A stretch of DNA of 64,000 nt from Flavobacterium sp. KACC 22763 (lineage in GTDB: Bacteria > Bacteroidota > Bacteroidia > Flavobacteriales > Flavobacteriaceae), in the NCBI RefSeq assembly GCF_028736155.1, contig NZ_CP117879.1, forward strand, positions 372,001-436,000, given 5' to 3'. The notes beneath the pieces were generated by a model that worked only from the letters and a program-made list of their open reading frames with translations, made no database searches and had not been told where the DNA came from. Shown in pieces: positions 58,629 to 60,104 of this stretch; the stretch's first letter is position 1; every line of letters begins with the position of its first letter. Both the position numbers and the translations under genes were made by a program.

Positions 58629-58715
58629 ATGCCCTAGCCCTGATGGGAGCGGCATCCTTTTGTGGCGGGGTTCGCCACAAAAGATATAGCGGACAGCAGG
58701 AATTAGCTCCTGATT
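58629..58715. repeat. Dispersed hairpin repeat (CCTAGCCCTGATGGGAGCGG type)
   Basis: The element runs from TGCCCTAGCCC through a hairpin CTTTTGTGGCG / CGCCACAAAAG (58657-58683) to GGAATTAGCTCCTG. It is markedly more GC-rich than the surroundings. I recognise it as a repeat common between genes of Flavobacteria. It fills the gap between two minus-strand genes. Confidence 0.8.
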
Positions 58716-58718
58716 ATT

Positions 58719-59597
58719 TTAATTGCTAATCTGTCCGTCGACCATTACTAATTTTCTATCAGCCATGTTGGCCAATTCTTCGTTGTGTGTTACAATGACA
58801 AAAGTTTGTCCGAATTCGTCTCGAAGCTGAAAAAATAATTGATGCAGATTTTCGGCAGAATGTGTATCTAAGTTTCCAGAAGGTTCATCGGCAAAAATGA
58901 CATCTGGTTTATTGATTAAAGCTCTCGCAACGGCAACGCGCTGCTGTTCACCACCCGAAAGTTCGCTAGGTTTATGATTGATTCTATGCGAAAGTCCTAG
59001 ATAAGAAAGGAGTTTTTTTGCTTCTTCTTCTGTTTCGGCTGTTTTTTTGCCTGCAATATGAGCTGGAATACAAACGTTTTCTAAGGCAGTAAACTCAGGT
59101 AAAAGCTGATGAAATTGAAAAATAAAACCTAAATTTAAGTTTCTAAAGTCGGATAAAACCTTGTCTTGCTTGCTTTTCTTTTTGAAGTAACGGTTATAGT
59201 AAACCAGCAATAAAAGAGTAGGCGCAAGTACTATTGCCCACGTTCCGTAGCCAAAAATATCGTTTTCTATTTTACTTCTAAAAAACAATACAAATACTGC
59301 CAATAAAATAAAATAAAGGGCTCCTAACCAAGTAATGATTTTAAACGCTTTTTCTTGATTTGAGCTTTCGTTTTTAATGTTTTGTAACTCCAAGACATTT
59401 CTGCCATTTATAGTCAAAGATGATTCTGGATTATGGTCTGGTTTGTCTAAAGTTCCTAAAATCTGCAATAATGTCGTTTTACCAGCACCCGAAGCACCAA
59501 CAATAGAAACAATTTCACCTTTTTTGATATGTAGATCGACTCCTTTAAGAACTTCAAGTTTGTCGTAGAATTTATGTATGTTTTTTGCGTGTATCAT
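58719..59597 (-). CDS. LolD-like ABC ATPase with two inserted membrane helices
   Basis: A 292-residue ATPase, about 60 residues longer than LolD. Walker A GASGAGKT (34-41), Q-loop Q161 ([13 protein letters not shown]), signature LSGGEQQR (213-220), Walker [13 protein letters not shown] and H271 are intact and resemble LolD/MacB-type ATPases. Between Walker A and the Q-loop, residues about 73-147 hold two hydrophobic stretches (about 88-106 and 118-135) with a charged loop between, ending KKKSKQDK. In ordinary LolD this place has about 12 residues. The frame is continuous and the flanks align normally. No permease gene is adjacent. The insert would tether the ATPase to the membrane. Confidence 0.9.
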
Positions 59598-59819
59598 GTA
59601 CTGAAACTGTTTTTACAAAGAAACGAAGATTATCATTATAATCAAATTCCAATATTTTTAAATTCCAAATCTCAAATTTCAAAAAGAAAGTGACTATTTT
59701 AGAAATAAACAATTGGTATATAAATTGATATGGGAAAGTTGGAAATTAAATTTAATAAATAAGTAAAACTACTTTGAAGAATTATTTTTAATTTCGATTA
59801 ACTTAAAAGTGAATGTGTT

Positions 59820-60104
59820 ATGCAAGATTTAGAAGTTGCAGAAGATGATAGAATGTCAAAACTGCTTATTGGGTTGGTTTTGGACGGAATAGGTATGATT
59901 TCTTTTTCGATTCCGTTTCTTGGTGAATTTTCAGATGTGGTTTGGGCACCTATTGCTGCGATAATTATGGCAAGAATGTATAAAGGAAGAGTAGGGAAAG
60001 TTGCTGGTGTTTTGACTTTTCTTGAAGAGATATTGCCTTTTACAGATGTAATTCCGTCTTTCACTTTGACATGGATTTACACTTATTTTTTTCAGAAAAA
60101 ATAG
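59820..60104 (+). CDS. Small membrane protein of unknown function
   Basis: A 94-residue protein with two hydrophobic segments, LLIGLVLDGIGMISFSIPFLG and DVVWAPIAAIIMARMY, and a third weak one near the end (LTWIYTYFF). The pattern recalls small uncharacterised membrane proteins of Bacteroidota (LPFTDVIPSFTLTWIY is conserved-looking). No function. A terminator follows immediately and is shared with the convergent pectate-lyase-like gene. Confidence 0.75.
   Translation: MQDLEVAEDDRMSKLLIGLVLDGIGMISFSIPFLGEFSDVVWAPIAAIIMARMYKGRVGKVAGVLTFLEEILPFTDVIPSFTLTWIYTYFFQKK

Follow-up and report, generated by a model that had tools for sequence, protein, structure and literature searches.

A LolD-like ATPase of Flavobacterium carries a conserved, lineage-restricted insert predicted to form a transmembrane hairpin beside its permease-contacting helix

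ABC ATPase subunits of the LolD kind are expected to be soluble and to reach the membrane through the coupling and elbow helices of a permease. Passages of PMC8333309 describe known LolD as a cytosolic subunit of its transporter. For Escherichia coli LolD, the available text of PMC11671585 places a side helix, S78 through Q87, in contact with the coupling helices of LolC and LolE; it names T302A, T307A and Y93A, all three of which disturb the Q-loop contact, as mutants that impair viability, and in those passages gives no effect for the side-helix residues R85 and S78. Excerpts of a study of LolA and LolB in Bacteroidota (PMC11885536) name LolCDE/F and do not mention LolD by that name, and they present F. 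johnsoniae as a genetic model of two processes, gliding and type IX secretion, that depend on lipoproteins being placed correctly.

The window analyzed here is a stretch of 64,000 nucleotides from Flavobacterium sp. KACC 22763 (NZ_CP117879.1, positions 372,001 to 436,000), and it contains an open reading frame at 58719-59597 whose top NCBIfam model, within the best 25 of 189 families, is TIGR02211 (LolD), matched in two stretches at 251.6 bits against a curated cut-off of 307.75 bits. Insertless homologues from Flavobacterium and Aquimarina also fall below this cut-off (271.9, 276.1 and 263.8 bits), so that the shortfall is mostly not caused by the insert described below. Because the cut-off is missed and a MacB-like paralogue, L002, scores 244.1 bits against the same model, we use the name LolD-like. 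All ABC motifs can be read intact from the sequence, including the D-loop SGNLD at residues 240-244 and the H-loop histidine H271, and no FtsX or MacB permease domain is found in the same 292-residue chain among the best 25 of 30 Pfam families. The ORF is the sole close LolD-like copy in its genome (one contig, 5.56 Mb). A second LolD that would free the window copy was sought and rejected, the next-best ABC proteins being at most 45% identical over the C-terminal half. The nearest of these other ABC proteins is L002, whose best family match is MacB and which, at G000:C1:3185093, has no adjoining FtsX-type match; another, L003, directly precedes a permease ORF. Far from lolD, a further ABC ATPase, L004, has next to it, at G000:C1:935927-943836, three open frames in tandem (804-821 aa) that together contain six FtsX-domain matches. 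As judged from its sequence, ORF 58719-59597 encodes the LolD-like ATPase of this genome, the putative motor that would drive lipoprotein release together with LolC and LolE. Its parts, in the order of the protein, are as follows.

58719..59597, minus strand: lolD-like ABC ATPase gene, 292 aa from an ATG start, with the predicted membrane hairpin (ORF and NCBIfam TIGR02211)
59475..59498, minus strand: Walker A, GASGAGKT, residues 34-41 (sequence; invariant in alignments)
59346..59396, minus strand: N-terminal stalk, residues 68-84, continuous with the first helix (AlphaFold helix 68-111; dN/dS of residues 72-84, 0.11)
59166..59384, minus strand: the insert, residues 72-144 (alignment with insertless LolD, which has no counterpart)
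59277..59345, minus strand: predicted TM1, residues 85-107 (hydropathy; conservation, Y95)
59256..59276, minus strand: short loop predicted to be periplasmic, residues 108-114 (K+R count below that of the linkers; helix break at 112-115)
59193..59255, minus strand: predicted TM2, residues 115-135 (hydropathy; conservation, P126)
59166..59192, minus strand: C-terminal basic stalk, residues 136-144, RYFKKKSKQ (dN/dS; conserved residues)
59136..59165, minus strand: side helix, residues 145-154, counterpart of E. coli LolD S78-Q87 (phmmer offset of 67 against 7arh_F)
59115..59117, minus strand: Q-loop glutamine, Q161 (sequence; invariant in alignments)
58947..58961, minus strand: ABC signature, LSGGE, residues 213-217 (sequence; invariant in alignments)
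58884..58901, minus strand: Walker B, VIFADE, residues 233-238 (sequence; alignment)

The ORF and its alignment confirm what a sequence-only reading of this DNA had proposed, a LolD-like ATPase with intact motifs and an insert of two hydrophobic helices between Walker A and the Q-loop. In the window protein 105 residues separate LD51 from GFIFQ157, compared with 33-34 in 37 of 42 insertless Flavobacterium rows (the remaining rows have 36, 36, 36, 42 and 56), which puts the extra length between Walker A and the Q-loop at ∼71-72 residues. The earlier placement of the insert at about 59157-59381 was close to the 59166-59384 found here, and the insert itself stands, while its estimated size of about 60 residues was too low both by alignment and by spacing. 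The insertless row with a spacing of 56 belongs to L171, a lolD of the same genus that carries a Pro- and Glu-rich addition of ∼22 residues in the loop leading into the strand ahead of the hairpin site; the stretch as a whole seems permissive.

The site had been described as a short loop of normal LolD, a description that holds in part, as it is not simply a loop and coincides with the N-terminal end of the side helix. In a phmmer alignment with E. coli LolD (7arh_F), residues 147-290 of the window protein match residues 80-223, an offset of 67, with the first two side-helix residues extrapolated, and by this mapping the end of the insert is the start of the permease-contacting helix. By the same offset, R152 and F160 are the counterparts of E. 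coli LolD residues discussed in the available text of PMC11671585. An AlphaFold model of the window protein shows a helical hairpin (helices 68-111 and 116-155) on an undisturbed LolD fold, and its ATPase part superposes on LolD of LolCDE (9rlc_D) over 216 residues with an rmsd of 1.9. The pLDDT is 70-91 over residues 81-150 and only 60 over residues 71-80, in the N-terminal stalk. In a model of an Aquimarina protein with the insert, the helices span residues 68-105 and 112-137 and TM2 is not continuous with the side helix, so a rigid lever is not a consistent prediction; 19 of the 41 alignment rows behind this model are Flavobacterium proteins with the insert, and it is therefore not independent. 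The mean pLDDT values of the window and Aquimarina models are only 76 and 73, and the ATPase parts are partly weak.

We consider it probable that this protein is a LolD-like motor with a lineage-restricted transmembrane hairpin at the N-terminal end of its side helix, which would serve as an inner-membrane anchor at the point of power transmission, on the side of the coupling helix. In such an arrangement the strand end, stalk, TM1, short periplasmic loop, TM2, basic stalk and side helix would form one long hairpin that leaves the ATPase fold unchanged. Each LolD would then be anchored in the inner membrane by a hairpin of its own, giving a LolC-LolE-LolD2 complex 12 membrane helices as compared with 8. 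The hairpin would keep the ATPase at the membrane, next to the coupling helix of LolC/LolE, and would act as a second mechanical link through which ATP-driven movement of the side helix is passed to the membrane without a new permease. We derive this mechanism from the geometry of the side helix; among the uses that the hairpin might have, we consider anchorage next to the coupling helix the most likely, its function being predicted.

The insert is a real, conserved and lineage-restricted variant of LolD. Of 398 genomes of the genus, sampled evenly from a larger group, 385 yield a match (E of 1e-40 or better), and at least 47 of these 385, the window genome included, align through the insert; the value of 47, drawn from about 150 match rows, is a minimum, also because a divergent insert may leave only the C-terminal half aligned. 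A spacing pattern, which had matched 30 of 60 loci in earlier use (the window's own and 29 other lolD loci from the genus search), retrieved 62 stretches of named genomes with an insert of about this size; other inserts would escape it, since it requires particular codons and one size range. By title, 51 of these stretches are from Flavobacterium (including F. johnsoniae CI04), 3 from 'Flavobacteriaceae bacterium', 1 from '[Flexibacter] sp.', 4 from Aquimarina, 2 from Cellulophaga and 1 from a Bacteroidia MAG. Among the best 30 loci of a family search, 2, both of the same genus, have the insert, and all 28 loci from other genera have uninterrupted spacing. When the insert alone was used as the query, matches with E of 1e-15 or better were confined to the window's genus, both among 397 genomes of the family (2 genomes; next best 1.9e-5) and among 395 genomes of the order (9 genomes; next best 4.7e-5). 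Up to 14 candidates per genome were scored in these two samples, whose members are not assignable to Aquimarina or Cellulophaga, and matches weaker than 1e-15 were taken, by the gap in score, as generic membrane segments. The presence of the insert is patchy within Flavobacterium and within Aquimarina, and because close relatives live without it, the insert is not required for lipoprotein export as such.

The coding sequence of the insert is under purifying selection. With dN/dS taken as mean dN over mean dS (62 distinct of 78 lolD genes, 292 codons, up to 307 pairs with an overall dS of 0.15-1.0, saturated pairs excluded segment by segment), the insert has a value of 0.134, with 0.11 for residues 72-84, 0.139 for TM1, 0.254 for TM2 and 0.052 for the C-terminal stalk (residues 136-147), compared with 0.011 and 0.028 for the two ATPase parts. 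Tyr95, Pro126, Tyr137 and Asp145 are invariant in all 131 distinct proteins of 292 aa, in which the conservation of stalk residues is 1.0 for Tyr137, 0.98 for Phe138, 0.98 for Lys141 and 0.99 for Ser142. A Tyr, a Pro and one Lys are also invariant across 8 inserts from Flavobacterium, Aquimarina, Cellulophaga and one MAG. The most divergent proteins with the insert, P0096 and P0105, group with Flavobacterium and lack the Pro of TM2; these two may indicate the extent to which the hairpin can vary. P0129 is another divergent member.

These values bear on the reading that best competes with an anchor, namely that the hairpin is inserted in the membrane and yet is a mechanically idle ornament: a permissive site would tolerate it, its hydrophobicity would be kept up because the protein would suffer from a broken hairpin, and it would sometimes be lost. 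Its patchy distribution in the two genera, a dN/dS that is ∼5-12 times that of the ATPase parts and permeases with no fixed difference would all be expected of such an ornament. Against it stand the constraint on the insert and above all on its C-terminal stalk, the Tyr and Pro kept in 131 of 131 proteins, and the three residues shared by inserts of different genera, and we regard it as unlikely.

Two matches to TIGR02212 in the window's genome cover nearly the whole model, at 180.7 and 171.0 bits against a cut-off of 362.45; these LolCE-type permeases, of 411 and 399 aa, are located away from lolD, and because the genes are dispersed, the pairing of LolD with LolC and LolE is only inferred. 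One LolC-like and one LolE-like permease are present in each of 30 relatives (15 with and 15 without the insert; E of 1e-60), and both proteins have four transmembrane peaks in all 16 sets with the insert, the window's genome included, and in the 15 sets without it. An alignment of the LolC/LolE-like proteins of these 16 and 15 genomes reveals no fixed residue difference. Conservative columns that are nearly fixed (majorities that differ, with at least 80% on each side) number 4 in the LolC-like and 0 in the LolE-like proteins. At alignment column 313 of the LolC-like proteins (L038), Met is found in 13 of 16 genomes with the insert and Leu in 14 of 15 without it, a difference that is inseparable from shared descent, as the species with the insert are largely close kin; the column lies in a K-S/A-x-G stretch between TM2 and TM3 that, by comparison with E. 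coli, we take to be the site of the coupling helix. The suggestion that the insert changes how the ATPase meets its permease is therefore supported only in part: the insert abuts the side helix that in E. coli touches the coupling helices, but LolC and LolE have the same number of transmembrane peaks and no fixed difference.

The lack of such a difference, together with the strongly conserved stalk and the Tyr in TM1, could be read as a sign that the hairpin docks another inner-membrane or periplasmic partner of lipoprotein handling instead of forming a link to LolC/LolE. As far as the downstream neighbor goes, this reading finds no support: a TIGR02757 gene lies next to copies with and without the insert alike. 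By a motif test it follows lolD at 17 of 19 insertless loci and 52 of 92 loci with the insert (of the others, 14 have flanks that are too short and at 26 it was not found; L172, which has no pattern match, was left out of the survey); the 52 include one Aquimarina and one Cellulophaga locus, so that in these the same gene occupies the same position. We give a docking role somewhat less weight still than an idle hairpin. Between lolD and the TIGR02757 gene lies a Flavo-1 RNA (RF01705; 58632-58707, plus strand; 78.1 bits against a gathering score of 42).

Whether the two helices enter the membrane at all can be approached through hydropathy. The window protein has 19-residue peaks of 2.61 (from residue 87) and 1.94 (from residue 114). 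Two non-overlapping segments with a 19-residue mean of at least 1.6 are present in the inserts of 152 of 157 distinct proteins, and no such peak occurs in any of 64 distinct insertless proteins. The loop between the segments averages 8 residues and 1.7 K+R, compared with 3.5 and 6.0 K+R in the two linkers, the distribution that a hairpin with cytosolic ends should show. By a summed scale of insertion energy, insertion is favored for TM1 (mean −1.8) over TM2 (mean +1.2), and TM2 is the weaker segment by its dN/dS of 0.25 and by one protein that peaks at only 1.09. The hydropathy and the AlphaFold models predict, as the sequence-only reading did, that the insert makes the ATPase an integral membrane protein, although models that contain no membrane cannot, even together with hydropathy, prove insertion. 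LolD with the insert is thus probably an integral inner-membrane protein by prediction. That the two helices instead form a soluble or surface-lying hairpin and LolD stays peripheral, an outcome also named in that reading, would agree with the absence of a membrane from the models and with the existence of ABC ATPases that carry inserted helical hairpins, such as the arms of SMC/Rad50. The paired hydrophobic segments, their basic flanks and the short loop make this improbable, and the predictions are of a membrane hairpin. Finally, an artefact of assembly or gene model, or a spliced element such as an intein or intron, has nothing in its favor except the oddity itself and can be dismissed, given in-frame inserts that differ little in length across dozens of genomes (in the genus, 47 or more of 385, plus the 62 named stretches, exclude both an assembly error and a peculiarity of one assembly), purifying selection acting on the reading frame, the lack of any Rfam match at E 0.1 across 58708-60047, and ∼73 residues without intein-like termini (by eye).

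Alignment with LolD of other Flavobacteriaceae, proposed as a means to date the insert, shows that it is lineage-restricted and does not decide between transfer and ancestral presence with losses. The inserts of Flavobacterium and of Aquimarina/Cellulophaga occupy the same site and, from sequence comparison, look homologous: with the conserved end removed, hhalign scores them at 40.8, a value that none of 200 segment shuffles reaches (maximum 35.7). The ATPase parts, by contrast, cluster by genus, with 100/100 support for Flavobacterium versus the rest (P0116, which the pattern did not match, was left out of the tree). The 13-residue N-terminal flank of Aquimarina proteins with the insert resembles Flavobacterium proteins with the insert slightly more (0.60) than insertless proteins of Flavobacterium (0.53) or Aquimarina (0.52), while their C-terminal half is nearest that of insertless Aquimarina (0.93 versus 0.79). 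The flank begins with SSL in 179 of 182 Flavobacterium, 12 of 12 Aquimarina, 3 of 3 Cellulophaga and 1 of 1 other rows with the insert, and in 3 of 42 insertless Flavobacterium rows, counts in which a protein may be repeated; a few insertless loci of other genera, such as L137, have it as well. Three histories agree with this pattern: a segment was transferred, the insert was ancestral and lost many times, or the flank became adapted. For the Flavobacterium sample neither the permease tree (2 changes, p-AU 0.074) nor the ATPase tree (5 changes, p-AU 0.097) rejects a single clade of proteins with the insert, and such a clade is not rejected for Aquimarina either (3 changes, p-AU 0.245). A larger ATPase tree forces at least 5 changes for Flavobacterium through well-supported branches, and, with the AU tests set against it, repeated gain or loss of the insert within a genus is likely, not proven. 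No paralogue or free-standing source of the insert was found in the window's own genome (E of 0.5 or worse besides lolD itself), and a search for scars of mobile elements around the insert returned short, chance-like repeats only. By eye, some Aquimarina sequences show a duplication of DKxL at the borders of the insert, which is suggestive at most. As a tentative proposal, which we hold with considerably less confidence than the anchor itself, these proteins would form a 12-helix LolCDE whose hairpin, on the helix that meets the permease, is a portable module gained by or passed among the LolD genes of Flavobacterium, Aquimarina and Cellulophaga, and sometimes lost, with the permease hardly changed.

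In the open-licence literature we found no account of such an insert in LolD and no membrane-spanning hairpin inside an ABC ATPase domain. A natural LolD with an anchor of its own would test how far force transmission in LolCDE depends on the coupling helix alone. Species with and without the insert, whose LolD is otherwise near-identical and whose LolC and LolE are nearly unchanged, amount to a natural swap experiment. Inhibitor-bound structures of LolCDE exist, to judge from the title of a structure entry (SMT-738).

Compared with LolD of LolCDE (the E. coli 7ARH series; Aquifex 2PCJ), the window protein is longer by ∼71-72 residues; this addition, which holds the two predicted membrane helices, sits at the N-terminus of the side helix. 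Its ATPase domain is related to those of MacB and other type VII ABC systems (BceA, FtsE and YbbA). MacB likewise has its ATPase linked covalently to membrane helices, but there the membrane domain comes after the ATPase domain, whereas here a two-helix hairpin interrupts the ATPase domain itself. The arms of SMC/Rad50 and the regulatory insertion of CFTR are also elements placed inside an ABC ATPase domain, but they are soluble and are found at other sites of that domain.
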